NCBI RefSeq assembly: GCF_006517175.1
Contig: NZ_CP041186.1
Span: 5,297,074-5,361,073 of the forward strand
From: Persicimonas caeni
GTDB lineage: Bacteria > Myxococcota_A > Bradymonadia > Bradymonadales > Bradymonadaceae
Direction of reading: 5' to 3'
Length of the DNA: 64,000 nucleotides
Made by a program: the position numbers and the translations under genes. Each line of letters begins with the position of its first letter. The stretch's first letter is position 1. The notes under the pieces were generated by a model. It ran no database searches, was not told the DNA's origin, and saw nothing but the letters and a program-made list of their open reading frames with translations. This document shows positions 10,714 to 24,929 of the stretch, one piece after another.

Positions 10714-11703
10714 ATGCCGACGAACGACACTATGAAGGTGGCCGTGCTCGCCGAGCCCGGCCATTTTCGTCTCGAAGAGAAGCCAAAACCCGAGCCTGGT
10801 CCCAACCAAGTCCTGTTGGAGTTGGAGGGCTGCGGGGTTTGTGCGTCCAATATCCCGCCCTTCGAGGGCCGGGAGTGGTTCGACTACCCGTTCGAGCCCG
10901 GCCAGCCCGGCCACGAGGGCTGGGGTGTGGTCGAGGCCGTGGGCGAGTCGGTGACCGACTTCGAGCCCGGCGACCGCGTCGCCGCGCTCACCTACAACGC
11001 TTATGCAACCTATGATTTGGCCGACGCCTCGGCGTGCGTGAAGCTGCCCGAGGAGCTCGACGGGGTGCCGTTTCCCGGCGAGCCGCTCGGATGCGCGATG
11101 AATATCTTTCGGCGCTCCGACATCGAGGAGGGGCAGACCGTGGCCATCATCGGCGTCGGATTCTTGGGCTCGCTGATGTGTGCGCTCGCCTCCGACGCTG
11201 GAGCGCGGGTCATCGCAATCAGCCGGCGTGAGATCTCGCGGGACTTCGGCGAGCGCTTCGGCGCCTGGAAGACCATCCCGATGGAAGACCACCAGGGGAT
11301 CATCGACGAGGTCGAGAAGCTGACCGAGGGCGACCTGTGCGACCGGGTCATCGAGTGTGTCGGCAAGCAGTGGCCGCTCGATTTGGCCGCCGAGCTCACC
11401 CGCGTGCGCGGCCGGCTCGTCATCGCCGGCTACCACCAGGACGGCGCCCGCCAGGTGGACATGCAGATGTGGAACTGGCGCGGCCTCGACGTGGTCAACG
11501 CCCACGAGCGTGACCAGAAGATGTACGTGCAGGGGATGCGCGACGCCGTCGACGCCGTCCAGAACGGCCGTCTCGACCCGACGCCGCTCTTTACCCACGA
11601 GTTCGCCCTCGACGAGATGAACGAGGCGCTGCAGGCCGCCAAGGAGCGCCCCGACGGGTTCATGAAAGCGCTCATCAACACCCGGGAGGTGCGCAATGCC
11701 TGA
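10714..11703 (+). CDS. Zinc-dependent alcohol/polyol dehydrogenase-like protein (MDR family)
   Basis: 329 residues; the ATG at 10714 has GGGAG 8 bases upstream. The N-terminal GroES-like half holds a catalytic-zinc Cys in GCGVCASN and the GHEGWGVV motif. The Rossmann half has VAIIGVGFLGSLMC. The four-Cys structural-zinc loop of many family members is absent. The probable reaction is NAD(P)-dependent oxidation of a sugar alcohol or similar secondary alcohol. The last 8 bases overlap the start of the Gfo/Idh gene, so the pair is likely translationally coupled and may act on the same sugar. It opens the glycan cluster. Confidence 0.85.
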   Translation: MPTNDTMKVAVLAEPGHFRLEEKPKPEPGPNQVLLELEGCGVCASNIPPFEGREWFDYPFEPGQPGHEGWGVVEAVGESVTDFEPGDRVAALTYNAYATYDLADASACVKLPEELDGVPFPGEPLGCAMNIFRRSDIEEGQTVAIIGVGFLGSLMCALASDAGARVIAISRREISRDFGERFGAWKTIPMEDHQGIIDEVEKLTEGDLCDRVIECVGKQWPLDLAAELTRVRGRLVIAGYHQDGARQVDMQMWNWRGLDVVNAHERDQKMYVQGMRDAVDAVQNGRLDPTPLFTHEFALDEMNEALQAAKERPDGFMKALINTREVRNA

Positions 11704-12718
11704 CCAAAACTCCACGTCGAACGAGAAACCCCAGAATAAGAAACCAAGGATCGGATGCCTGGGCGTCGGCTGGATCGGGCGCCACCGCATGGAGCGGGTC
11801 ATCGACAGCGGCGCGGCCGAGGTCGTTGCCGTGTGCGACCCGAACAAAGAGGCGATCGACGAGGCCCTGGAGGCCGCGCCGAACGCCGAGGTCGCCGGTT
11901 CGCTCGATTGGATGCTCGGCATGGACCTGGACGCGGTGATGATCGCCACGCCCAGTGCCATGCACGCCGAGCAGGCGATCCGGGCGCTCAACGCCGACAA
12001 AGCCGTCTTCTGCCAAAAGCCGCTCGCCCGCAATGCCGAGGAGACCCACCGGGTCGTCTCGGCCGCCAAGGAGGTCGACCGGCTGTTGGGCGTCGACTTT
12101 TCGTACCGCCACACCGAGGCGATGCAGCAGATCGCGCCGCTCATCGAAAGCGGCGAGCTGGGCGACATCTACGCCGTCGACCTCGTCTTTCACAACGCCT
12201 ACGGGCCCGACAAGGACTGGTTCTACGACGTCGAGCGTGCCGGCGGAGGTTGCCTCATCGACCTGGGCATTCACCTGGTCGACCTGGCGATGTGGGCGCT
12301 CGACTGGCCGGAGGTCACCGGCGTGCAGGGCTGCTGCATGGCCGATGGGAAGCCCCTCGACCCGCAGAGCCCGCAGGTTGAGGACTACGCCACCGCCTGC
12401 GTCAACCTGGGCGACTCGGTCGTCGACTTGTCGTGCTCGTGGCGGCTCTCCGCCGGGCGCGACTGCGTCATCGAGGCGGCGTTCTACGGCACCGAAGGCG
12501 GCGCAAAGCTGCGAAATGTCGACGGGTCGTTCTACGACTTCGTCGCCGAGCGATACGATGGCACCTCCACCGAGGTGCTGTGTGAGCCACCCGACGCCTG
12601 GGGCGGCCGCGCCGCGAGCGCCTGGGCCGAGCAATTGGCCGAGGACGGCAGCTACGATCCGACCATCGAGAAGGCCGTCGAGGTCGCCAAGGTCGTCGAC
12701 CGTATCTACGGGCGTTGA
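11696..12718 (+). CDS. Gfo/Idh/MocA-family oxidoreductase
   Basis: 340 residues. The N-terminal Rossmann domain begins with IGCLGVGWIGRHRMERV. The Lys-Pro motif of the family appears as FCQKPLARN (consensus EKP, here QKP). The helical/beta C-terminal domain carries GGGCLIDLGIHLVDLAMWAL, which provides the usual catalytic His/Asp. It would oxidise or reduce a sugar or cyclitol using NAD(P). The start is set by GGGAGG about 6 bases upstream and by the 8-base overlap with the preceding dehydrogenase. The substrate is not deducible; the pairing suggests a two-step modification of a sugar building block. Confidence 0.87.
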   Translation: MPDQNSTSNEKPQNKKPRIGCLGVGWIGRHRMERVIDSGAAEVVAVCDPNKEAIDEALEAAPNAEVAGSLDWMLGMDLDAVMIATPSAMHAEQAIRALNADKAVFCQKPLARNAEETHRVVSAAKEVDRLLGVDFSYRHTEAMQQIAPLIESGELGDIYAVDLVFHNAYGPDKDWFYDVERAGGGCLIDLGIHLVDLAMWALDWPEVTGVQGCCMADGKPLDPQSPQVEDYATACVNLGDSVVDLSCSWRLSAGRDCVIEAAFYGTEGGAKLRNVDGSFYDFVAERYDGTSTEVLCEPPDAWGGRAASAWAEQLAEDGSYDPTIEKAVEVAKVVDRIYGR

Positions 12719-12848: not shown

Positions 12849-13157
12849 ATGGCTAGCCATAAGACGAAGGCGACGACCGACCACGACGAGATTCGCCACT
12901 GGGCTGAAGAGCGAGACGGACGCCCCGCCACGGTCAAGCACACCTCGCGCGGCGAGTCCGCCGGGCTGCTTCGCTTCAAATTTCCGACCGCAGGGCGGGA
13001 CGAAAACCTCGAAGAGGTCTCGTGGGACGAGTTCTTCAGCAAATTCGACAACGAAGACCTCGCCATGATTTACCAAGAGGAAACCCAAGGCGGTGACACG
13101 AGTCGCTTCTTCAAGTTCGTCTCCAAAGAGACCGCTCGGGAAGCAACGGAGGAGTGA
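12849..13157 (+). CDS. Small conserved protein of unknown function
   Basis: 102 residues, cytoplasmic and charged. AAAGGAGG ends 5 bases before the ATG, a near-perfect ribosome site suggesting high expression. The sequence pattern HDEIRHWAEERDGRPATVK, then G-x-x-x-G-L-L-R-F-K-F and WDEFFSKF...YQEET, is one I remember as a short protein shared by unrelated bacteria and sometimes mislabelled as a glucan branching enzyme; it has none of that enzyme's domains. It sits inside the glycan cluster, 130 bases after the Gfo/Idh gene and overlapping the SDR gene. Confidence 0.8.
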   Translation: MASHKTKATTDHDEIRHWAEERDGRPATVKHTSRGESAGLLRFKFPTAGRDENLEEVSWDEFFSKFDNEDLAMIYQEETQGGDTSRFFKFVSKETAREATEE

Positions 13158-13879
13158 GTTTGGAGGACATGTCCCACAGACGGGCGCTGGTGACGGGTGG
13201 CGCCTCCGGCATCGGCCTGGCCGTCGTCGAGCGGCTGCTCGACGCCGGCGCCCGGGTCGCCGCCGTCGACCTTCGCCCGGTGCCCGTCGAGCACCACAAC
13301 CTGCTCTGCCTCGAAGCCGACATTACCGACGGCGACCAGGTCGATGCGTGCTTCAAGCGTGTCGTCGAGCACTTCGAAGGCCTCGACATTCTGGTGTCGA
13401 ACGCCGGCATTGGCATCCACGAGCGTCTCGACGAGGGCGACCCGGACAAGTGGCAACGCGTGGTCGAGACGAACCTCGTCGGCGCGATGCGCTGCGTGCG
13501 CGCCTTCGTGCCGCTGCTCGATCGCGAAAAGGGGCCGGGCGGGCCGCGCGACGTGGTCATCGTGTCGTCGGTGGCCGACCAGAAGCCGTACAGCTACGGC
13601 GGCACCTACGCGGCCAGCAAGGCGGGCCTGAGCGCGATGGCCGAGACGCTTCGGCTCGAGTTGCTCCCCCAGGTGCGCGTGACCACGGTGCGCCCGGGGA
13701 TGGTCGATACCTCCTTTTTCGAGCATTCCGTGCACGCTTCGTCGCCGACGCCGCAGGAGGTTGGCTTTACGGCGGTACCCGCAGGCGAAGTCGCCGAGGC
13801 TATCTTCTTTGCGCTCACCCGGCCGCAGAGCGTGGCCATCAACGAACTGGTGATTCGACCGGCTGACCAACCGTTTTAG
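13154..13879 (+). CDS. Short-chain dehydrogenase/reductase
   Basis: 241 residues from GTG 13154, which overlaps the previous stop codon (GTGA). A TTG at 13160 has GGAGGA at an ideal 6-base distance and an ATG at 13169 is also possible, so the start is uncertain by up to five codons. The classical SDR marks are TGGASGIG (NAD(P) binding), a VSNAGIG loop and the catalytic Ser (VIVSSVAD) and YAASK. The C-terminus has no extra domain. It most likely reduces or oxidises a sugar-linked hydroxyl or ketone. It closes the first block of the glycan cluster; 294 bases of noncoding sequence with no clear signal follow. Confidence 0.87.
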   Translation: MSLEDMSHRRALVTGGASGIGLAVVERLLDAGARVAAVDLRPVPVEHHNLLCLEADITDGDQVDACFKRVVEHFEGLDILVSNAGIGIHERLDEGDPDKWQRVVETNLVGAMRCVRAFVPLLDREKGPGGPRDVVIVSSVADQKPYSYGGTYAASKAGLSAMAETLRLELLPQVRVTTVRPGMVDTSFFEHSVHASSPTPQEVGFTAVPAGEVAEAIFFALTRPQSVAINELVIRPADQPF

Positions 13880-14173
13880 CCCGTTGGACCCTCTTGGCCA
13901 CACGCTGGCCGGGGGCGGTTGGGCTTCTTCTTTGACGGCTTGTCGTGCCGACCTAGGTTTCACCATTACATGGATGTAACAGCAGAAGCCCGAAGCTCCG
14001 TCGAGACGGAGCCGAGCCGGCTTCAAGTAGAGCCTCTCTAGGCAGTTGTTGGATGATGGTCCATCCCGTGGCCCGGCCGTCCGGCTGCAGTATGCCTGTG
14101 GTGGGGGACAAGCGGTACGCATACGCCGACTCGAGACGTATTCAACACTGACTTGGTTCGCAGGCGCAACGAC

Positions 14174-15292
14174 ATGTCCAAACAGATCTTGATCACAGGC
14201 GGAGCCGGGTTCATCGGCTCGCACCTCGCCGACGAATTGCTCGACCACGGCCACGCGGTGCGCGTGCTCGACAACTTCAGCGAACAGGTCCATGGGGGGA
14301 GACAGCCCGATTATATGGACGAGCGCGTCGAGATCCTCGAGGGCGATGTGCGCGACCGCGCTGCGGTCGAGCAGGCCCTCGAGGGGGTCGATGTGGTCTA
14401 CCACTTCGCTGCCGCGGTGGGCGTGGGCCAGTCGATGTACGAAATCGAGCAGTACACCTCGGTCAACAACGTGGGCACGGGCGTGTTGCTCGAGGCTCTG
14501 ATCGACCGGCCTGTAGAGCGGTTGGTGGTCGCCTCGAGCATGAGCCTTTACGGCGAAGGACTCTACAAGAGCCCGGGCGGCACGGTGCGCCAAGACGTGA
14601 GCCGAAGCGCCGACCAACTCGCCGAGGGGCAGTGGGAGTTGCACGATGAGGAGGGCCGCAAGCTCGAGCCCATTCCCACGCCCGAAGACAAGCAGCCGGC
14701 GCTGGCCTCCATCTACGCGCTGTCGAAGTACGACCAAGAGCAGATGTGCCTGATGATCGGCAAGGCCTACGACATCGAGGCGGTCGCGCTTCGCTTCTTC
14801 AACGTCTACGGACCTCGCCAGGCGCTGTCGAACCCCTACACCGGGGTGTTGGCCATTTTCGGGTCGCGCTATCTCAACGACAAGCCACCGCTGATCTTCG
14901 AAGACGGCCTCCAGCGCCGCGATTTCGTGCACGTCTCCGACGTCGTCCGCGGGTGTCGCCTGGCCATGGAGCGCGACGAGGCGGTCGGCGAGGTCTTCAA
15001 CATCGGCAGCGGCGAGTCGTTCACCGTGCGCCAGGTCGCCGACGAGATGGGCCGGGCGATGGGCAAAGAGCATCTCGAGCCCAAGGTCACCGGGGAGTAT
15101 CGCGTGGGCGACATCCGACACTGCTTTGCCGACATCTCCAAGGCGCGCGAGCAGTTGGGCTACGAGCCGCAAATGAGCTTCGAGCGCGGCCTCGACGAAC
15201 TCGCCGAGTGGATGACCCGCCAGACCGCCGAGGACCACGTCGACCAGATGCACGAAGAGTTGTCGGCGCGCGGCCTGACGGTCGGACGCTAA
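14174..15292 (+). CDS. NAD-dependent epimerase, dTDP-L-rhamnose 4-epimerase-like
   Basis: 372 residues. The extended-SDR NAD site is ILITGGAGFIGSHL and the catalytic pair is Ser (VVASSMSLYGEG) with IYALSKYDQE. The stretch FAAAVGVGQSMYEIEQYTSV and the SSMSLYGEG motif match, from memory, WbiB-type dTDP-L-rhamnose 4-epimerases, which make dTDP-6-deoxy-L-talose. UDP-glucose 4-epimerase is the alternative. The ATG at 14174 starts the usual N-terminus, though no strong ribosome site precedes it; TTG 14153 would add seven residues. It probably starts a second transcription unit of the glycan cluster. Confidence 0.8.
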   Translation: MSKQILITGGAGFIGSHLADELLDHGHAVRVLDNFSEQVHGGRQPDYMDERVEILEGDVRDRAAVEQALEGVDVVYHFAAAVGVGQSMYEIEQYTSVNNVGTGVLLEALIDRPVERLVVASSMSLYGEGLYKSPGGTVRQDVSRSADQLAEGQWELHDEEGRKLEPIPTPEDKQPALASIYALSKYDQEQMCLMIGKAYDIEAVALRFFNVYGPRQALSNPYTGVLAIFGSRYLNDKPPLIFEDGLQRRDFVHVSDVVRGCRLAMERDEAVGEVFNIGSGESFTVRQVADEMGRAMGKEHLEPKVTGEYRVGDIRHCFADISKAREQLGYEPQMSFERGLDELAEWMTRQTAEDHVDQMHEELSARGLTVGR

Positions 15293-15386: not shown

Positions 15387-17468
15387 ATGAGTCAATCACC
15401 AGATGATGCACCAACACAGTCGAAGCAAGTCTTCGGCGTGCTGGAATGGTTTCATTTCGAGGATTATGACTTTGTCGAGCAGACCATCGCCGACCTGCGG
15501 CGGCTCGGAGTCGACCATCTGCGCACAGGCATCTCCTGGGCCGACTGGATGCGTGATGGGGGCGAAGAGTGGATCGACTGGTTATTCGAGCGGCTCACTC
15601 GAGAGGATTTCGACCTGCTGCCGTGTTTTCTGTACACCCCGCCCTCCGAAGGCGAGGTCGAGCGCACCTCCTCGCCGCCGCGCAACCTGAAGGCCTATGC
15701 CGACTTCCTCGACGAGATGCTCTCGCGCTACGGCGAGCATTTCGAGTACGTCGAGCTGTGGAACGAGCCCAATAACTTCGCCGAGTGGGACTTTCGCAGA
15801 GACCCGGAGTTCACCAAGTTCGCCGAGATGATCATCATGGCGGCGAACTGGGCCCAAAAGCAGGGTAAAAAGACGGTGCTCGGCGGCATGAGCCCCATCG
15901 ACCCGGGGTGGCTCGAGCACATCATCGGCCTGGGCGTGCTCGATTATATCGACGTGCTCGGGGTGCACGGGTTTCCGGGCACGTGGGAGAAGAACTGGTC
16001 GAGCTGGCAAGAGCAGATCGGCGAGGTCCATAACGTCCTCGACCGCTACGATTACGACCTTCCCATCTGGATCACCGAGGCGGGTTACTCGACGCGAAAC
16101 CACAGCGACTTCCAGCAGCTCGAGGTCTTCCTGGACGCCCTCGATGCGCCCGCCGAGCGCATGTACTGGTACGGGATGTACGACCTGCCGAACGAGCGCT
16201 CCTCGATTCTGGGCTTCCACCTCGACGAGCGCGAGTACCACTGCGGTCTCAAACGCGATGACGGGCGTGCGAAGCTGTTGTTTCGGCTGTTGTGCGATGG
16301 TGGAGAACAAACCGTGCGCGAGGTCTCGAGTTGGCCGACGGTCGACAAGCCCGCCCCCGACGACGCCGCGCTGATCACCGGCGGGGCGGGGTTCATCGGG
16401 TCGAACTTGGCTTACGAGCTTCTGTCTCAGGGCCGCGATGTCGTCATCTATGACAGCTTGAGCCGCCCCGGCGTCGAGTCCAACCTTGGCTGGCTCAAAG
16501 ACAACTTCGAGGACAACCTGTGGGTCGTGCTCGCCGATTTGCGCGACCGCCACGCGTTGCATCTGGCCATGGAGGGCGTCAGTGAGGTGTTTCACTTCGC
16601 CGGCCAGACGGCGGTGACCACCAGCCTCGACGACCCCGTCGACGACTTCACCGCCAATGCGCGTGCCACGCTCAATTTGCTCGAGGAGATTCGCGCCAGC
16701 GATCACTCACCGAGCCTGGTGTTCACGTCGACCAACAAGGTCTACGGCAATCTGGCCGACGTCGAGTTGGTCGAAGAGCAGACGCGCTACGAGCCGGCGA
16801 ACTCGGAGGTGCGCGAGCGAGGTATCGGCGAAGACCGCCGCCTGCAGCTGTGCAGCCCCTACGGATGCTCGAAGGGCGCCGCTGACCAGTACGTGCTCGA
16901 CTACGCCAAGACCTTTGGCATCGACGCCTGCGTGTTTCGGATGAGCTGCATTTATGGGCCGCGGCAATTCGGCACTGAGGACCAGGGCTGGATCGCCCAC
17001 TTCCTGATCCGCGCGCTCGAAGACGACCAGATCACCATCTACGGCGACGGCAAGCAGGTGCGCGACGTGCTCTTCGTCGAAGACCTCGTCGACGCGTTTT
17101 TGCGTACCCGCGACCACATGGACGAGCTGTCGGGCCGCGCGTTCAATATCGGCGGCGGACCCGACAACACGATGAGCCTGCTGGAGCTTCTGGACCTGAT
17201 CGTCGACGTCGACGGGCGCTCCCCGAAGGTAGAGTTCGACGAATGGCGCCCGGGTGACCAGCGCTTCTACGTCTCGGATATCTCGGCCTTTCGCGAGGCG
17301 ACCGGTTGGCAGCCGAAGGTCAGGCGGCGCCGCGGCGTCGAGCGCCTCTACGATTGGCTCGTGGAGTTTCGCGGCCGCCAGAGTCGCAGCCAACCTATCC
17401 CAGCGCTCGAATATGCGAGTGCGTCGCCCGAAGCACTGTCGGGCGTTCGCTCGGAGGGAACGCGATGA
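15387..17468 (+). CDS. Fusion: clan-A glycoside hydrolase-like domain plus CDP-paratose 2-epimerase-like domain
   Basis: 693 residues with GAGGAG before the ATG. Residues 13-320 look like a TIM-barrel glycosidase of clan GH-A (xylosidase-like): the acid/base is Glu127 in ELWNEPNN and the nucleophile Glu231 in WITEAGYS. From residue 328 an extended SDR begins: TGGAGFIGSN (331-340), FTSTNKVYGN and SPYGCSKGA with Tyr492 and Lys496. The STNKVYG motif is typical of CDP-paratose/tyvelose 2-epimerases. A hydrolase joined to a sugar-nucleotide epimerase is unusual. No signal peptide is present, so the glycosidase-like half would act in the cytoplasm or may be a binding module. The stop overlaps the next ATG (ATGA). 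Confidence 0.83.
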   Translation: MSQSPDDAPTQSKQVFGVLEWFHFEDYDFVEQTIADLRRLGVDHLRTGISWADWMRDGGEEWIDWLFERLTREDFDLLPCFLYTPPSEGEVERTSSPPRNLKAYADFLDEMLSRYGEHFEYVELWNEPNNFAEWDFRRDPEFTKFAEMIIMAANWAQKQGKKTVLGGMSPIDPGWLEHIIGLGVLDYIDVLGVHGFPGTWEKNWSSWQEQIGEVHNVLDRYDYDLPIWITEAGYSTRNHSDFQQLEVFLDALDAPAERMYWYGMYDLPNERSSILGFHLDEREYHCGLKRDDGRAKLLFRLLCDGGEQTVREVSSWPTVDKPAPDDAALITGGAGFIGSNLAYELLSQGRDVVIYDSLSRPGVESNLGWLKDNFEDNLWVVLADLRDRHALHLAMEGVSEVFHFAGQTAVTTSLDDPVDDFTANARATLNLLEEIRASDHSPSLVFTSTNKVYGNLADVELVEEQTRYEPANSEVRERGIGEDRRLQLCSPYGCSKGAADQYVLDYAKTFGIDACVFRMSCIYGPRQFGTEDQGWIAHFLIRALEDDQITIYGDGKQVRDVLFVEDLVDAFLRTRDHMDELSGRAFNIGGGPDNTMSLLELLDLIVDVDGRSPKVEFDEWRPGDQRFYVSDISAFREATGWQPKVRRRRGVERLYDWLVEFRGRQSRSQPIPALEYASASPEALSGVRSEGTR

Positions 17469-18598
17469 CCGAATCGCCCGCTGTCGAACATATTATGATG
17501 ACCACCGACACCATCGGCGGGGTCTGGACCTACGTGATGGAACTCTCCCGCGGACTTTGCGGGCGGGGGATGCACATCACGCTGGCGGCCATGGGCGACG
17601 AGCCCTCCGACGAGCAGCTCGCCGAGGCCGAGGCGATCGATGGCCTCGAGATGTTCGCTCGACCCTACGCGCTCGAGTGGATGCAGGACCCGTGGGAAGA
17701 CCTGGCCGAGGCGGCCGGCTGGCTCTCTGAGTTGGCCCACCGCCATCGTCCCGAGCTGGTGCACCTGAACACGCTCGCCCACGGCGGGCTTGCCTGGGAT
17801 GTGCCGGTGCTCACCGTCGGTCATTCCTGCGTGCTCTCCTGGTTCGAGGCGGTCAAGGGGCATCCCGCTCCGCCCGAGTGGGACCGCTACCGCGATCTGG
17901 TGCGAGACTCGTTTCGGGCCTCCGATATGGTCGCGGCGCCCAGCGCGTCGATGATGCAGACCTTCCAGCGCCACTACGGTCCGCTGGAGAATACCCGCGT
18001 CATCTACAACGGCCGCAACCCCGAGGAGTTTCCGCCCGGCGACAAGGAGCCGTGCGTGATGACGGCCGGGCGATTGTGGGACGAGGCCAAAAACGTGCAG
18101 GCGGTCGCCCAGGCCGCCAAGCAAATCGAGTGGCCGGTCTATGTGGCCGGCAGTCAGACCCACCCGGACGGGGGAACCGTCGAACTCGAGGGCGTCGAGC
18201 AGCTCGGTCGGCTCGACTCCGACGAGCTCGCCCGCTGGTACGGCCGCTCTATGATCTACGCCTTGCCGGCTCGCTACGAGCCCTTCGGATTGACCGCGCT
18301 GGAGGCGGCGTTGGCGGGCAACGCGCTGGTGCTGGGCGATATCGCCACCTTGCGCGAGATCTGGGGCGAGGCCGCGCTCTTTGTCGACCCGGAGCAGCCC
18401 GACCAGCTCGCCGAGACAATCAACACACTCATCGCCGACCCGGAGCGCCTCGAGTGGCTCGCCAACCGCGCTCGAAGCCGCGCCTTGCAGTTCTCGGTCG
18501 AGACCAAGGTCGACCACTACATGGAGCTGTATGGCGAGATGTGCCCCGACAGCCCCGCTCCCTATGACGAGTTTCCGCAGCCCGGAGGCCGAGCCTGA
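17465..18598 (+). CDS. GT4-family glycosyltransferase
   Basis: 377 residues starting at the ATG in ATGA shared with the upstream stop; this start is favoured by coupling. It has a GT-B fold pattern: an N-terminal acceptor domain opening with TDTIGGVWTYVMELSRGL, and a donor domain with VMTAGRLWDEAKN and the E-x7-E signature YEPFGLTALEAALAG. It would transfer a sugar from a nucleotide donor to a growing glycan on the cytoplasmic face. The stop overlaps the next start by one base (TGATG), so this gene, the fusion gene upstream and the CgeB-type genes downstream are one translational run. Confidence 0.88.
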   Translation: MTESPAVEHIMMTTDTIGGVWTYVMELSRGLCGRGMHITLAAMGDEPSDEQLAEAEAIDGLEMFARPYALEWMQDPWEDLAEAAGWLSELAHRHRPELVHLNTLAHGGLAWDVPVLTVGHSCVLSWFEAVKGHPAPPEWDRYRDLVRDSFRASDMVAAPSASMMQTFQRHYGPLENTRVIYNGRNPEEFPPGDKEPCVMTAGRLWDEAKNVQAVAQAAKQIEWPVYVAGSQTHPDGGTVELEGVEQLGRLDSDELARWYGRSMIYALPARYEPFGLTALEAALAGNALVLGDIATLREIWGEAALFVDPEQPDQLAETINTLIADPERLEWLANRARSRALQFSVETKVDHYMELYGEMCPDSPAPYDEFPQPGGRA

Positions 18599-19734
18599 TG
18601 CGCATCGTACTCTTCTACCATTCGCTGATTTCCGACTGGAATCACGGCAACGCACACTTTCTGCGCGGGGTGGTCACCGAGCTCTTGCAGGCCGGCCACG
18701 ACGTGACCGTGTTCGAGCCGCTGGGCGGTTGGAGCCTGGATAACCTGCTCGAGGAGCACGGCGACCACGCTCGTCTGGCATTTCACGACGCCTATCCGAA
18801 GCTGCAAAGTGAGTTCTACGAGCCCGAACGCCTCGACCTCGACCGCGCGCTCGACGGGGCCGACCTGGTGATCGTCCACGAGTGGAACGATCACGATGTG
18901 GTCGCGCGCATCGGCCAGTACCGGCACAGCAGCGGCGACTTTCGCCTGCTCTTCCACGACACCCACCACCGCTCGGTCAGCCAACCCGAGGAGATGCAGG
19001 CCTATGACCTGCGCCATTACGACGGCGTGCTCGCCTTCGGTGAGGTGATCAGCGAGATCTACCGGGAGCGCGACTGGGCCGAGCGGGTCTGGACGTGGCA
19101 CGAAGCGGCCGACGCGCGCAAATTTCGCCCACTGGAGGCCGACCGCACCGACGGCGAGTTGGTCTGGATTGGCAACTGGGGAGACGACGAGCGCACCGAC
19201 GAGTTGCAGACGTTTGTGTTCGAGCCGGTCGACGAGCTCGGCCTCGACGCGACCGTCCACGGGGTGCGCTATCCCGACGAGGCGGTCGAAAGACTCGAGC
19301 GCGCCGGGCTCGACTACCGTGGGTGGCTGCCCAATTTCGAGGTGCCGCGTGCGTTTTCGCGCCACCGGCTCACAGTGCACGTGCCGCGCCAATTCTACGT
19401 CACCTCGCTGCCGGGCATCCCGACGATTCGCCCCTTCGAGGCGATGGCGTGCGGCATCCCGCTGGTCTGCTCGCCGTGGGAGGACGCCGAGGGGTTGTTC
19501 CGCCGCGGCCACGACCACCTGGTGGCCCACGACAAAGCAGAGATGAAAGAGACGATCCGCGCGCTTTGCCACGACGACGACATGGTCGCCGAGCTGGCGC
19601 GAAACGGACGCGAGACAATCCTGGAGCGACACACTTGCGCGCACCGCGTCGAGGAGCTGATGGAGGTCTGCCGGGAACTCGGCATGGACGCTCCCGAACG
19701 CGACGACGCGCGCCTGTCACCGCCCCGAGCGTAA
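18598..19734 (+). CDS. CgeB-type glycosyltransferase, copy 1
   Basis: 378 residues. The GT-B layout matches CgeB-family proteins, named after the Bacillus spore-surface protein: N-terminal MRIVLFYHSLISDWNHGNAH, then a donor-side domain with LVWIGNWGDDERTDEL and the C-terminal RPFEAMACGIPLVCSPWEDA, which corresponds to the E-containing nucleotide-sugar loop. It is the most diverged of the three CgeB-type genes here. It starts one base inside the preceding GT4 gene. The donor and acceptor sugars are unknown. Confidence 0.83.
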   Translation: MRIVLFYHSLISDWNHGNAHFLRGVVTELLQAGHDVTVFEPLGGWSLDNLLEEHGDHARLAFHDAYPKLQSEFYEPERLDLDRALDGADLVIVHEWNDHDVVARIGQYRHSSGDFRLLFHDTHHRSVSQPEEMQAYDLRHYDGVLAFGEVISEIYRERDWAERVWTWHEAADARKFRPLEADRTDGELVWIGNWGDDERTDELQTFVFEPVDELGLDATVHGVRYPDEAVERLERAGLDYRGWLPNFEVPRAFSRHRLTVHVPRQFYVTSLPGIPTIRPFEAMACGIPLVCSPWEDAEGLFRRGHDHLVAHDKAEMKETIRALCHDDDMVAELARNGRETILERHTCAHRVEELMEVCRELGMDAPERDDARLSPPRA

Positions 19735-19747
19735 GCCCAAATTCCTC

Positions 19748-20836
19748 ATGATGAACGACGAGAGTTCAATGGAGATTGCGTTTTTCGGTTCGAGTCTGGT
19801 TTCGGCGTACTGGAACGGTGCGGCGACCTACTACCGCGGCATCATCCGCGCGCTCAGCGAGCATGGCCACAAGGTCACGTTCTATGAGCCCGACGCCTAC
19901 GACCGCCAGAAGCACCGCGACATCCCCGATCCCGACTGGGCCGAGGTGGTCGTCTATGAGGTCGACGACGGCACCGGCGAACTCGAGCGGATGCTCGAGG
20001 AGGCCCGCAGCGCCGACCTGGTGGTCAAGGCCAGCGGCGTGGGCGCCTTCGACGAGTTTTTGGAGCGCGAGGTGCCCAACCTCAAAGACGGTCAGACGCG
20101 TGTGGTCTTCTGGGACGTCGACGCCCCGGCTACGCTCGACCGCATGGGCGAAGATCCGGACGACCCGTTTCGCGAGCAGGTGCCGCGCTACGACGCCGTG
20201 TTCACCTACGGGGGCGGCGAGCCGGTCATCGACGGCTACGAGACCTTCGGGGCCAAGCGCTGCGTGCCGATCTACAACGCGCTCGACCCGCAGACGCACC
20301 ATCCCACCGAGCCGGTCGACAAGTTCACCTCGGACCTGTCGTTTCTGGGCAATCGCCTGCCCGACCGCGAGGAGCGCGTCGAGGAGTTCTTCCTCAAGCC
20401 GGCCGCCGAGTTGCCTCGACACAAGTTCTTGCTCGGGGGCAGCGGTTGGGACGACAAGGAGATGCCCTCCAACATCGACTATCTCGGCCACGTCTACACC
20501 CCCGATCACAACGCGTTCAACTGCAGCGCGCGCGCCGTGCTCAATATCAGCCGCGAGTCGATGGCGCGCTACGGCTTCTCGCCGGCCACGCGCGTCTTCG
20601 AGGCAGCCGGCGCTGGGGCGTGCCTGATCACCGACGCGTGGGAGGGCATCGACATGTTTTTGGAGCCGGGCAAAGAGGTGCTCGTCGCCGAGCGCGGCGC
20701 GGACGTCGCCCGCATGGTGCGCGGCCTCGACGATGATCGGGCCGCGCGTATCGGCCAGGCCGCCAAGCGGCGGGTGCTCTCCGAGCACACCTATCACCAC
20801 CGGGCCAAGCAGATTGAAGAGATTCTGGAGAACTAG
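19748..20836 (+). CDS. CgeB-type glycosyltransferase, copy 2
   Basis: 362 residues from ATG 19748; an ATG at 19769 (MEIAFFGSSLVSAYWNG) matches the family N-terminus better and could be the true start. Motifs parallel the neighbouring copy 3: YYRGIIRALSEHGHKVTFYE, DLSFLGNRLPDREERVEEF, NISRESMARYGFSPATRVFE and ITDAWEGIDMFLEPGKEVL. The pairing of SPATRVFEAA with DAWEGI is the donor-binding region in this family. It lies 13 bases after copy 1 and 25 bases before copy 3. Confidence 0.84.
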   Translation: MMNDESSMEIAFFGSSLVSAYWNGAATYYRGIIRALSEHGHKVTFYEPDAYDRQKHRDIPDPDWAEVVVYEVDDGTGELERMLEEARSADLVVKASGVGAFDEFLEREVPNLKDGQTRVVFWDVDAPATLDRMGEDPDDPFREQVPRYDAVFTYGGGEPVIDGYETFGAKRCVPIYNALDPQTHHPTEPVDKFTSDLSFLGNRLPDREERVEEFFLKPAAELPRHKFLLGGSGWDDKEMPSNIDYLGHVYTPDHNAFNCSARAVLNISRESMARYGFSPATRVFEAAGAGACLITDAWEGIDMFLEPGKEVLVAERGADVARMVRGLDDDRAARIGQAAKRRVLSEHTYHHRAKQIEEILEN

Positions 20837-20861
20837 TCACACGAGTTGAATGGGAGAACCC

Positions 20862-21974
20862 ATGAGCGAATCTTCGCTTCGCATTGTCATCCTGGGCCTG
20901 TCGATCACCTCGTCGTGGGGCAACGGCCACGCGGCGACGTACCGCGGGCTGGTGCGCGCGCTCGACGAGCGCGGCCACCGGGTGGTCTTCTTGGAGCGCG
21001 ACGTGCCCTGGTACAGGGCCCACCGCGATCTGCCCGACCCACCGTATGCCGAGACATTCTTGTACGAGGACCTCGACGACCTTCGGCGCCGGTTTTTGGC
21101 CGAGATCCGCTCGGCGGACGTCGTCATCGTCGGGTCGTATGTGCCCGAAGGGGTCGACGTGGGCCAGTTCGTGCTCGAGCAGGCCCGCGGGGTGACCGGT
21201 TTTTACGACATCGACACGCCGGTGACCTTGGCGAAGCTTCGTCGCCAGGACTACGAGTACCTGACGCCGGAGCTCATCGGCGAGTACGACATGTACCTGT
21301 CGTTCAGCGGCGGGCCGATCCTCGACGAGATCGAGGACACCTACGGCTCGCCGATGGCCCGCCCGTTTCACTGCTCGGTCGACAAGTCCGAGTACTATCC
21401 CGACGAGGCCCCGAACAAGTGGACGATGGGGTATCTGGGGACCTACAGCGACGATCGCCAACCGCGCGTCGAGTCGCTACTCAACGCACCGGCGCGTCAG
21501 CTCGCCGACCAGGACTTCGTGGTCGCCGGGCCGAGCTATCCCGAAGAGATCGAGTGGCCGGCCAACGTCGAGCGCATCGATCACGTCGCGCCGCCCGACC
21601 ACCGCCACTTCTACAATTCGCAGCGCTTTACGCTCAACGTGACCCGCGACGACATGATCGAGGCGGGCTTCTCACCGAGCGTGCGCCTGTTCGAGGCGGC
21701 GGCGTGCGCCACGCCGATCATCAGCGATGTCTGGGAGGGCATCGAGACGTTCTTCACGCCCGGCGAAGAGATTCTGTTGGCGGAGTCGACCGAGCAGGCT
21801 GTCGATTATATTCGAAGCATGAGCGACGAGGAGTGTAGCGCCATGGCGAAGAGAGCACGGGAGAGGGTGCTCTCGGAACATACGCCGGCGCATCGCGTCG
21901 ATCAGCTCGAGCAGTACGTAGCCCAGGCGCACACGCAGTCGGCCGCCGCGCGGCCCGTCGGGGCGAAGAATTAA
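20862..21974 (+). CDS. CgeB-type glycosyltransferase, copy 3
   Basis: 370 residues; GGGAG lies 5 bases before the ATG. It aligns end to end with copy 2: WGNGHAATYRGLVRAL, MGYLGTYSDDRQPRVE, NVTRDDMIEAGFSPSVRLFE and ISDVWEGIETFFTPGEEILL. The tail is Ala/Gln-rich. Copies 2 and 3 look like a tandem duplication, which suggests they add similar sugars in successive steps or use different donors. A cytoplasmic enzyme, no signal peptide. Confidence 0.85.
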   Translation: MSESSLRIVILGLSITSSWGNGHAATYRGLVRALDERGHRVVFLERDVPWYRAHRDLPDPPYAETFLYEDLDDLRRRFLAEIRSADVVIVGSYVPEGVDVGQFVLEQARGVTGFYDIDTPVTLAKLRRQDYEYLTPELIGEYDMYLSFSGGPILDEIEDTYGSPMARPFHCSVDKSEYYPDEAPNKWTMGYLGTYSDDRQPRVESLLNAPARQLADQDFVVAGPSYPEEIEWPANVERIDHVAPPDHRHFYNSQRFTLNVTRDDMIEAGFSPSVRLFEAAACATPIISDVWEGIETFFTPGEEILLAESTEQAVDYIRSMSDEECSAMAKRARERVLSEHTPAHRVDQLEQYVAQAHTQSAAARPVGAKN

Positions 21975-22038
21975 GGGACGGGGTCGCCCCGTGGCATGCC
22001 GCCAGGGGGGGACGCCATCCTATCAAGGGGAGGTAGAC

Positions 22039-22878
22039 ATGGGGACTTTGCAGTCACGGGGAAATAATAACGCAGGGGAGTTTTCCGAGGAGCTTTTGGA
22101 GCTCGGCCCCTGGTTTCATAACTTGCACCTGCCGGGAGGTGTGCAGACGGCGCCGAATCATCCGCTGGGAGACTTTCCGGCGTTCAAGTGGAGGGAGCTT
22201 CGACAGTCGCTGCCCGACGATTTGAGCGGATGGCGCGTGCTCGACATCGGCTGTAACGCCGGCTTCTATTCGTTCGAATTGGCCAAGATGGGGGCCGAGG
22301 TGTGCGGGATCGACATGGACCCGCATTATCTTCGCCAGGCGCACTGGGCGTGTGACGAGCTGGGTCTGGGCGATCAGGTCTCGTTTCGCCAGATGCAGGT
22401 CTACGAATTGGCGCGCTCGCCGGAGACCTACGACCTGGTGCTCTTTATGGGCGTCTTCTACCACCTGCGCTACCCGCTGTTGGCGCTCGACATCGTCTCG
22501 GAGCGCACCGAGCGCATGATGGTCTTCCAGTCGCTGTCGATGCTCGAGCAGAGCGTCGAGCCGCAGCCCGAGGACTTCGAGATGGAGGAGCGCGGGCTCA
22601 TGGAGCGGCCGGGGTGGCCGAAGATGGCGTTTGTGCGCCGCAAGCTGCAGTCGGACCCGACCAACTGGTGGATTCCCAACCGAGCGTGCATCGAGGCGAT
22701 GCTCACCGATGTGGGCTTCGACATCACCGACAACCCGGGCGAGTCGATATACGTCTGTGAACGAAACGCCGACTTGGCCGCAGCCTCGTTGCGAAATCCC
22801 GACGAGCTGAGCGAGGCGATTGGATACCACCATCGAGGAATTGACAATCCACCCACGTCACCTCGGGCGAGGTCCTGA
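22039..22878 (+). CDS. SAM-dependent methyltransferase, CmoB/TIGR04290-like
   Basis: 279 residues; GGGGAGG is 5 bases upstream of the ATG. The class I methyltransferase core shows motif I as VLDIGCNAGFYSFELAKMG, an acidic post-I residue in VCGIDMDPHYLRQAHW and a YDLVLFMGVFYHLRYPL motif. The leading segment (GPWFHNLHLPGGVQT) resembles CmoB-type and TIGR04290-type methyltransferases from memory. In this setting the likely target is a sugar hydroxyl of the glycan or its precursor. A tRNA role is less likely because the gene is inside a glycosyltransferase run. Confidence 0.82.
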   Translation: MGTLQSRGNNNAGEFSEELLELGPWFHNLHLPGGVQTAPNHPLGDFPAFKWRELRQSLPDDLSGWRVLDIGCNAGFYSFELAKMGAEVCGIDMDPHYLRQAHWACDELGLGDQVSFRQMQVYELARSPETYDLVLFMGVFYHLRYPLLALDIVSERTERMMVFQSLSMLEQSVEPQPEDFEMEERGLMERPGWPKMAFVRRKLQSDPTNWWIPNRACIEAMLTDVGFDITDNPGESIYVCERNADLAAASLRNPDELSEAIGYHHRGIDNPPTSPRARS

Positions 22879-22958
22879 GAGGCGAGGCGGCTCGAGCCGC
22901 CCGGGCGGATGATAGATGTCGTATTGGGGGAGTACCTTTTTTGAAGACGGAGGATGCC

Positions 22959-23996
22959 ATGGCACGCCGATCACAAAACGAGCGCGTGCTCCTGACGGGG
23001 GTTGCTGGATTTGTTGGAAGTCATTTGGCCGACCGCCTCATCGAGGACGGTTGGGAGGTCATCGGGGTCGATAATTTCCTGACCGGGCGCGCCGAGAATA
23101 TCGCGCACCTCGCACGCGAGCCGAACTTTCACTTTCTGGAGGCCTCGGTCGAGGAGTTGCCGGACATCGAGGCGGCGGTCGACTGGGTGATGCATTTTGC
23201 CAGCCCGGCCTCGCCGCCCAAATATCAGGCCTCGCCCATCGAATGTATGCGCTGCAACAGCGAAGGGACGCGAAGGCTGCTCGAGTTGGCCCACCAGAAG
23301 GGCGCGAAGTTCTTCTTGGCCAGCACGAGCGAGGTCTACGGCGACCCGGAGATCCATCCGCAGGTCGAGTCCTACGTGGGCAGCGTCAACCCGGTCGGGC
23401 CCCGCAGCATGTACGACGAGTCGAAGCGCTTTGCTGAAGCGATGACCGTGGCCTACCGCAACAAGTACGGCGTCGACTCGCGCATCATCCGTATCTTCAA
23501 CACTTACGGGCCGCGCATGTCGCCCGACGACGGGCGGGTCATCTCGAACTTCGTGTGCCAGGCGCTGGCCGGAAAGCCGCTGACGGTCTACGGCGACGGC
23601 ACCCAGACGCGAAGCTTCCAGTATATCGACGACCTGCTCGAGGGGGTCGTGCGTCTGATGCAGACCGACTACAACATGCCGGTCAACCTGGGGAACCCGC
23701 AGGAGTTCACTATCCTCGACCTGGCCGAGGTCGTGCGCGACTTGGTCCACGACGGCGTCACCGAGATCACGTTTTGCCCGCTGCCCAAGGACGACCCGAC
23801 CCGGCGCCGGCCCGATATCAGCCGCGCCCAGGAGTTGCTGGGCTGGCAGCCCGAGATCTTGCTCCGCGACGGGCTCGAGCGCACCGTGCCCTATTTTCGC
23901 GACCAACTCGGCCAAGACGAGCGGATGCCCGCCGGTCTCGAGCAGATCTCGAGCATCGAGTCGACCTCCGAGGGGCCGCCACTCGAAGCGAGTTAG
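22959..23996 (+). CDS. UDP-glucuronate decarboxylase (UDP-xylose synthase)
   Basis: 345 residues from ATG 22959, which has ACGGAGG 5 bases upstream; an upstream TTG (22941) is rejected. Motifs follow the UXS family closely: LLTGVAGFVGSHLADRLI, GVDNFLTGRAENIAHL, MHFASPASP, LASTSEVYGDPEIHPQ, GPRSMYDESKRFAEA and IRIFNTYGPRM. The reaction is NAD-dependent oxidation and decarboxylation of UDP-glucuronate to UDP-xylose. A UDP-glucose dehydrogenase is not in the window, so its substrate must come from elsewhere. This is the best clue that the glycan contains xylose. Confidence 0.88.
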   Translation: MARRSQNERVLLTGVAGFVGSHLADRLIEDGWEVIGVDNFLTGRAENIAHLAREPNFHFLEASVEELPDIEAAVDWVMHFASPASPPKYQASPIECMRCNSEGTRRLLELAHQKGAKFFLASTSEVYGDPEIHPQVESYVGSVNPVGPRSMYDESKRFAEAMTVAYRNKYGVDSRIIRIFNTYGPRMSPDDGRVISNFVCQALAGKPLTVYGDGTQTRSFQYIDDLLEGVVRLMQTDYNMPVNLGNPQEFTILDLAEVVRDLVHDGVTEITFCPLPKDDPTRRRPDISRAQELLGWQPEILLRDGLERTVPYFRDQLGQDERMPAGLEQISSIESTSEGPPLEAS

Positions 23997-24050
23997 CGCT
24001 CCGCTTCCGTCGACGCACGATTGGCCGGACCACGACCCCCGAGGTTTGCG

Positions 24051-24929
24051 ATGAAGATTCTACAGATCGGCGCACCGAAGAGCGGCAACTTCTGGACCTG
24101 GAATATCCTGCAGAACACGCTCGACAAGGCGGGGCTGCCCAACGAGAGCCTGGTGCGCAGCCACGCCATTCACGAGGTGGCCAAGAGCTGGGACTTGAGC
24201 CACGACGAGCAGGCCAATATCGACATGCTCGACATCGCCACGCTGGGGTGCTCTTGGCGCATCAGCTCGGTATTTCGCATGCCGGTCGAGGATGTCGGCG
24301 CCTACGTCGCCCAGAACAACCACGTGTGGACCCACTCGCGCTGGTGCGAGCGCACCGACGAGGTGCTCTCCCACTTCGACCGCGCCGTCTACGTGGTCCG
24401 AGACCCGCGCGACCGGCTCCTGTCGGCCGCGCGCTTCGCGTTCACGCCCTACATGCAAAAATACTGGCCCCACGACGAAGAGGACCCGCGCTCGTTCATT
24501 GAAAACCGCTTCGACGAGCACCTCGACGAGTGGCGCTGGCACGTCTACGACTACCTGCGCCACGCCGACGAGCACGATATCCACTTCGTCTTCTACGAGC
24601 GCCTGCTCCACGACTTCGACAACGAATTCGGCCGCCTCATCGACTACCTGGGCGTCGACCTGGGCGAGCGCGAGCGCAAAGACATCAAGCGAAGCGTCGC
24701 CTTCGAGTCGATGCGCGGCGAACACCCTGGCCACGTCAAAAAGGGCAAGGCCGGCAAGTGGCACGCCATGTTCGACTCGCGCCAAAAGGGCAGGGCGGTC
24801 GTCCTGTGCGGCGGGCTGCTCGACCTGCTCGACTACCCGCGCTACCGGCCGTTGACCGAAGACCGCCTGCCGTCGATGCCCGAGAACCTCTCCTCGACCA
24901 CCGTCGAGCGCACAGCTCGCGCGGGTTGA
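24051..24929 (+). CDS. PAPS-dependent sulfotransferase
   Basis: 292 residues; GAGG lies 6 bases before the ATG. The 5'-phosphosulfate-binding loop is near the N-terminus (IGAPKSGNFWTWNIL, with the Lys-Ser-Gly pattern). The 3'-phosphate-binding segment is VYVVRDPRDRLLSAARF. The enzyme would move sulfate from PAPS to a hydroxyl, here plausibly the glycan assembled by the cluster. No signal peptide or membrane helix, so it acts in the cytoplasm. Its stop codon directly abuts the stop of the convergent NRDE gene, leaving no room for a separate terminator. Confidence 0.85.
   Translation: MKILQIGAPKSGNFWTWNILQNTLDKAGLPNESLVRSHAIHEVAKSWDLSHDEQANIDMLDIATLGCSWRISSVFRMPVEDVGAYVAQNNHVWTHSRWCERTDEVLSHFDRAVYVVRDPRDRLLSAARFAFTPYMQKYWPHDEEDPRSFIENRFDEHLDEWRWHVYDYLRHADEHDIHFVFYERLLHDFDNEFGRLIDYLGVDLGERERKDIKRSVAFESMRGEHPGHVKKGKAGKWHAMFDSRQKGRAVVLCGGLLDLLDYPRYRPLTEDRLPSMPENLSSTTVERTARAG

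Follow-up and report, generated by a model that had tools for sequence, protein, structure and literature searches.

The nearest solved relative of the barrel described in this work is PslG of Pseudomonas aeruginosa (GH39; structures 5bx9 and 4zn2), a retaining endo-β-glucosidase encoded in the Psl biosynthesis cluster as a stand-alone protein with a signal peptide and a mature periplasmic form (PMC11912335). Among glycoside hydrolases, a catalytic TIM barrel known to be circularly permuted in nature is that of the GH70 glucansucrases, permuted relatives of GH13 (e.g. PMC11299179). A third described system is CDP-tyvelose (paratose) 2-epimerase, represented by the structures 1orr and 9rl0.

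Here we analysed a stretch of 64,000 nucleotides from Persicimonas caeni (hereafter the window), in which a single gene, GH-EPI2, joins a barrel to an epimerase of this kind. Both this barrel and PslG are clan GH-A barrels, here a predicted retaining one, within a glycan biosynthesis cluster, but the barrel of the window has no signal and is fused to an epimerase, whereas PslG bears a signal and stands alone. The GH70/GH13 case belongs to another clan; in the present system a GH-A barrel is found in permuted and non-permuted forms in the same kind of cluster. The parts of the fusion gene are the following:

15387..17468, + strand: GH-EPI2 fusion gene, 693 aa, with the barrel at residues ~15-318 and the SDR at residues ~327-660
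15429..16340, + strand: GH39/PslG-like (β/α)8 barrel, with putative acid/base E127 after β-4 and putative nucleophile E231 on β-7
16365..17366, + strand: extended SDR half, CDP-tyvelose 2-epimerase-like, with GGAGFIG, Y492 and K496 and a structural match to 1orr

The reading frame begins with ATG, is preceded by GAGGAG ~7 nt upstream and contains no internal stop. An earlier sequence-only reading had proposed one polypeptide holding a clan GH-A barrel and an extended SDR, and the intact frame confirms it, with all four named residues as placed: E127 lies in WNEPNN (125-130), E231 in ITEAGY (229-234), GGAGFIG starts at residue 332 and SPYGCSK at 490, which gives Y492 and K496. The same reading saw no signal peptide; by inspection the N-terminus indeed has no hydrophobic signal-like stretch, so the protein is presumably cytoplasmic.

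A sequencing frameshift or misassembly could in principle have fused two adjoining genes, and the rarity of the combination is all that speaks for it. A search for the same domain architecture, however, found the fusion in over 20 further genomes and plasmids, with barrel identity mostly of 45-57%. These include Telluribacter (Bacteroidota), Chelativorans, MAGs of Phycisphaerales, deltaproteobacteria, Acidobacteriaceae, Chloroflexi and Armatimonadota (L116), plasmids of Rhizobium, Agrobacterium, Geminicoccaceae and Tistrella, and, from whole-genome searches, additional members of the Alphaproteobacteria and of the phylum to which the window belongs. In Rhizobium etli CFN42 the fused gene is RHE_RS22270, located on p42b. 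The identical junction thus recurs in unrelated genomes and plasmids, and a frameshift is therefore excluded, the probability of an artefact being practically nil.

In the AlphaFold2 model, the barrel has eight strands alternating with helices in canonical order (15-19, 44-50, 76-82, 121-124, 162-168, 190-195, 227-232 and 258-262), with a mean pLDDT of 82 and values mostly above 80 across residues 21-260. The catalytic positions of clan GH-A are occupied, strand 121-124 being followed by N126-E127-P128 and E231 lying on strand 227-232, as the earlier reading had anticipated. In the barrel family alignment (A5) the N-E-P Glu and the nucleophile Glu are invariant, and W21, R46, T47, W51, H194, W228, W261 and Y262 are kept around the active site. 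A barrel fold lacking a sugar pocket was rejected on sequence, given the conservation of both Glu and of the surrounding invariant residues.

None of the Pfam or NCBIfam models covers the window barrel (PF01229 gave no match), so that this is a glycosidase family without a model in either collection. Single-sequence searches see it weakly (PF11790, E 0.0058, below the cut-off; PslG, E 0.038), and a fold search with the full-length GH-EPI2 model returned match lists filled by the SDR half. The barrel family profile searched against solved structures found PslG at E 1.3e-11, in an alignment spanning both catalytic Glu, along with GH1 enzymes (E 1e-5) and GH39 β-xylosidases (E 2e-4). Judging from this kinship to PslG, the barrel is most likely a retaining GH39/PslG-like β-glycosidase; we infer hydrolytic activity on the same grounds.

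The SDR half has its best sequence matches in CDP-tyvelose 2-epimerase (9rl0, E 3.8e-84; 1orr, E 4.1e-83; 42-43% identity). It has the extended SDR fold, shares with these enzymes the motifs GGxGFxG and Y-x3-K, and its model superposes best on 1orr (Z 38.7, rmsd 1.9 over 322 residues). The label "CDP-paratose-2-epimerase-like" given to it earlier therefore stands as regards the branch of extended SDRs to which it belongs, but probably not as regards the CDP route. Unlike the known epimerases, the SDR here carries a fused barrel, and the enzymes that form CDP-glucose and dehydrate it at positions 4,6 are missing above cut-off: in the P. caeni genome, estimated to be 96% complete, the best score for glucose-1-phosphate cytidylyltransferase was 37 bits (cut-off 300) and that for CDP-glucose 4,6-dehydratase was 94.5 bits (cut-off 278). 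Because both upstream enzymes are absent above these curated cut-offs, a CDP-paratose/CDP-tyvelose route is disfavoured, and CDP-tyvelose is an unlikely product of the SDR half in this organism. The CDP label comes by homology only, and the substrate is probably another nucleotide sugar.

The gene lies in a run with the following members:

10714..11703, + strand: zinc-type dehydrogenase (ADH), conserved cluster member
11696..12718, + strand: Gfo/Idh/MocA oxidoreductase (GFO), conserved cluster member
14174..15292, + strand: EPI1, extended SDR of GalE/LegB type, directly 5' of GH-EPI2 (alternative start TTG at 14153)
17465..18598, + strand: GT4 glycosyltransferase, its ATG overlapping the GH-EPI2 stop
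18598..19734, + strand: CgeB-like glycosyltransferase A (Glyco_trans_1_2)
19748..20836, + strand: CgeB-like glycosyltransferase B
20850..21974, + strand: CgeB-like glycosyltransferase C
21991..22878, + strand: TIGR04290 family methyltransferase (328 bits, cut-off 300)
22941..23996, + strand: UDP-xylose-synthase/UDP-glucuronate-decarboxylase-like SDR, relatives of which are annotated as UDP-glucuronic acid decarboxylase
24021..24929, + strand: sulfotransferase (PF00685), last of the gene run

From GH-EPI2 through the sulfotransferase, the genes overlap or nearly abut. The set common to the loci comprises EPI1, EPI2 (with or without the barrel), ADH, Gfo/Idh/MocA, GT4, three CgeB-like glycosyltransferases and the TIGR04290 methyltransferase, and the UDP-xylose-synthase-like SDR is often present as well. 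The window has a cluster of this TIGR04290 type, and the order EPI1, EPI2, GT4 and three CgeB-like genes is kept in most of the 80 loci; three loci with an EPI2-like gene and no cluster (L076, L078 and L086) served as outgroup. Between GFO and EPI1 the window also has two overlapping genes, for an acidic protein of ~102 aa (12849-13157) and a classical SDR oxidoreductase (13154-13879), and classical SDRs are annotated close to the cluster in L108-L110 too. The sulfotransferase is not annotated in the relatives inspected.

In some relatives the cluster has additional genes, which encode a TIGR04295 B12-binding radical SAM protein or the pair of inositol-3-phosphate synthase and histidine-family phosphatase. 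The first is located between EPI2 and GT4 (L109 18034-19329; L112 10693-12021), and the product might therefore carry an uncommon methylation or rearrangement. The second pair adjoins the permuted barrel described below in Sinorhizobium and Azospirillum (L111 16230-17929; L112 13484-15192). The glycan may contain an inositol, because the best match of the cluster GFO is inositol 2-dehydrogenase (below cut-off) and inositol-3-phosphate synthase is encoded nearby. Within the clusters inspected, no flippase, polymerase or polysaccharide exporter is annotated, which suggests a small or intracellular product. The alphaproteobacterial clusters are flanked by many stress-type genes (DUF1003, YsnF/AvaK, ferritin-like, Mn catalase, glgA/treZ), from which one might guess at a stress-protective oligosaccharide. 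In the library searched, no paper turned up for TIGR04290 or "rhizo-twelve", searches on CgeB clusters, CDP-paratose 2-epimerase with β-xylosidase, domain fusions and circular permutation with clan GH-A found nothing relevant, and a paper on stress in Ensifer aridi does not mention the cluster genes. This is thus a widespread glycan pathway for which we found no published function.

The gene neighbourhood also bears on whether GH-EPI2 could be a catabolic pair that degrades an oligosaccharide after import and then converts the sugar set free. The free permuted form of the barrel is annotated as β-xylosidase in public records, as would suit such a role, but the genes around GH-EPI2 encode four glycosyltransferases, one methyltransferase, SDRs for nucleotide sugars and, in the window, a sulfotransferase; furthermore, a sugar importer is absent from the conserved cluster core and the SDR family acts on nucleotide sugars rather than free sugars. 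We consider a catabolic pair very improbable. Our preferred reading is biosynthetic: the C-terminal half would be an NAD-dependent nucleotide-sugar epimerase, probably acting at C2, that supplies the GT4 and the three CgeB-like glycosyltransferases.

The cluster containing the fusion occurs across many phyla. Matches to the barrel query were found in 6 of 297 genomes sampled from Acidobacteriota, 8 of 379 from the window's own phylum, 3 of 246 from Planctomycetota and 10 of 251 from Chloroflexota; for the alphaproteobacteria, they were found in 14 of 385 genomes of one class sample and 31 of 327 of one order. Since the barrel is absent from all 20 sampled genomes of the window's family, the cluster was probably acquired horizontally.

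In most of the clusters found, the fused barrel is absent and a separate, circularly permuted barrel of ~300 aa is present, with query residues 119-300 placed first and 15-116 second. The permuted protein starts with a Met directly before strand 4 (MIEAxxxWNEPNN, with the acid/base Glu) and has strand 3 and helix 3 as its last elements, and the start of its gene overlaps the stop of the TIGR04290 gene (16001 versus 16004 in L112). Its model is a complete eight-stranded barrel of order 4-5-6-7-8-1-2-3 (pLDDT 83.6, pTM 0.86). A fold search with this model gave TIM barrels in general (GH20, GH84 and designed barrels, Z 12-14), and no GH-A family came at the top, as is to be expected when a permuted chain is aligned by an order-dependent method. 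Proteins of this kind are those annotated as "β-xylosidase" next to TIGR04290 methyltransferases in Azospirillum, Sinorhizobium and Roseomonas, while the Bradyrhizobium loci have the same protein without annotation. They share with GH-EPI2 a homologous barrel, the same cluster and the same catalytic residues, but are encoded by a separate gene and run from β4-β8 to β1-β3. The earlier suggestion that the joining of the two domains is functionally special finds no support, as the domains are encoded apart in most cluster relatives.

When the permuted sequences were rotated to canonical order, the unrooted barrel tree showed three groups: the permuted barrels as a single clade (100/100, 40 rows), the fused barrels (100/98, 20 rows), and L011 and L020, two stand-alone barrels without permutation. 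The permuted barrels forming one clade, the permutation looks like a single event. Rows with and without the fused barrel are intermixed in the SDR tree, with 12 changes, at least 5 of them forced. Together with the single fused-barrel group, this indicates one fusion followed by repeated loss of the barrel, a direction that we infer, the barrel tree being unrooted. A module of TIGR04290 methyltransferase and permuted barrel also occurs apart from the main cluster (L245 10361-12057; L248 9457-11579), at ~640 kb in G1881 and on another contig in G1677.

The fate of the catalytic Glu in the fused barrels largely follows the presence of the permuted copy. In whole-genome searches, both Glu were kept in 17/17 genomes in which the fused barrel is the only copy (G000, G058, G059, G063, G064, G065, G092, G685, G724, G742, G804, G868, G871, G969, G1650, G1712 and G1878), several genomes being incomplete MAGs for which the lack of a second copy may be false. 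By contrast, among the seven genomes with a complete fused barrel and a permuted one, six have a fused copy without one or both Glu (G061, E231A; G062, E127H/E231Q; G396, E127R; G641, E127P; G1057, both, with strand 4 eroded; G1677, E127). The exception is G1881, where the fused barrel is intact despite a permuted barrel ~640 kb away. In G060 the second barrel is of canonical order and both barrels are intact; G914 was left outside the count, as a contig end cuts the gene. Fisher's exact test of Glu loss against the permuted copy gave p 5e-5, uncorrected for kinship; taking kinship into account, the first five losses gave between 2 independent pairs (starred branches) and 5 (best tree), which all point the same way but are too few for significance. 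At least one barrel is present in 35 of the 36 genomes with the cluster, and E127, E231, N126, H194 and Y262 are kept in 98/98 permuted barrels examined.

Decay is also seen in other features. L017 has only a scrap of the barrel C-terminus in front of EPI2, and its genome (G066) has a permuted barrel. The end branches of three decayed barrels are long (3.33, 1.98 and 1.96), their SDR halves having ordinary ones (0.60, 0.66 and 0.46), and the SDR motifs of decayed fusions are intact, with many alphaproteobacterial rows reading TPYGCSK.

This loss pattern bears on the idea, raised in the sequence-only reading, that the barrel serves only to bind sugar. As a non-catalytic binding or scaffold domain for the epimerase, it could persist after the loss of catalytic Glu, as it does in six fused proteins (L012, L013, L159, L160, L179 and L221). 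Such losses, however, are seen only beside a second intact barrel, the Glu being otherwise kept in all sole and permuted copies, and many SDR relatives work with no barrel attached; we regard a purely binding role as quite improbable. Since sole copies keep the Glu and loss comes alongside a permuted copy, the pathway most likely requires the barrel as a catalyst, one that works in trans. Read most simply, a single catalytic barrel would be needed, the fused and permuted forms would supply the same activity and physical fusion would be dispensable.

We hold with fair confidence that the two barrels catalyse the same step, that the permutation arose once and that the permuted gene repeatedly displaced the fused domain; a common substrate for both forms is part of this proposal. 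Under displacement, the fused barrels would represent stages of decay: intact, with a point-mutated active site, with deleted strands, reduced to a C-terminal scrap, and gone. Such a series would show, in nature, the replacement of a fused, unpermuted enzyme by a circularly permuted homologue. From the pattern of loss it can be predicted which residues are important and that either barrel form could take the place of the other. The finding is in our view genuine, and the permuted counterpart together with the decay series makes it more interesting than the fusion would be by itself, although all parts are of known folds. The fusion, the fold, the catalytic positions, the cluster, the permutation and the loss pattern are computed results; the hydrolytic activity, a common substrate and the place in the pathway, and with them the biochemical role, are deduced.

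Retaining GH-A enzymes are capable of transglycosylation, and the barrel could instead be a transglycosidase that uses the same two Glu to transfer glycosyl groups between intermediates in the cytoplasm, thereby building the product. Its cytoplasmic site in a biosynthetic cluster and the strict need for an intact active site would fit building equally well. Against this, PslG is an endo-hydrolase (PMC11912335) and an acceptor-site signature was not identified, so we see transglycosylation as rather unlikely. Overall, with moderate confidence, we favour GH-EPI2 as a cytoplasmic enzyme with two functions in a pathway of TIGR04290 type, the product of which would be a glycan, probably an oligosaccharide. 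In it the epimerase would feed the glycosyltransferases, and the N-terminal half would perform one step that the pathway requires, acting on its product or an intermediate by trimming, release or turnover. Catalysis in the barrel would be retaining, E127 serving as acid/base and E231 as nucleophile. This activity would operate in trans, being supplied also by the separate permuted homologue encoded beside the methyltransferase, in whose presence the fused barrel would usually lose its active site or be deleted.

Two minor observations concern individual barrels. In the record of a Xanthomonas sacchari R1 plasmid (L113 14828-18084), a frame change lies within the barrel of the fused gene, and it is either a sequencing error or a broken gene. 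The Chloroflexota permuted barrels L200, L201, L203, L204 and L206 form a divergent subclade, with EWVYW or EWVFW in place of QWFHF in strand 1, and possibly act on another substrate.
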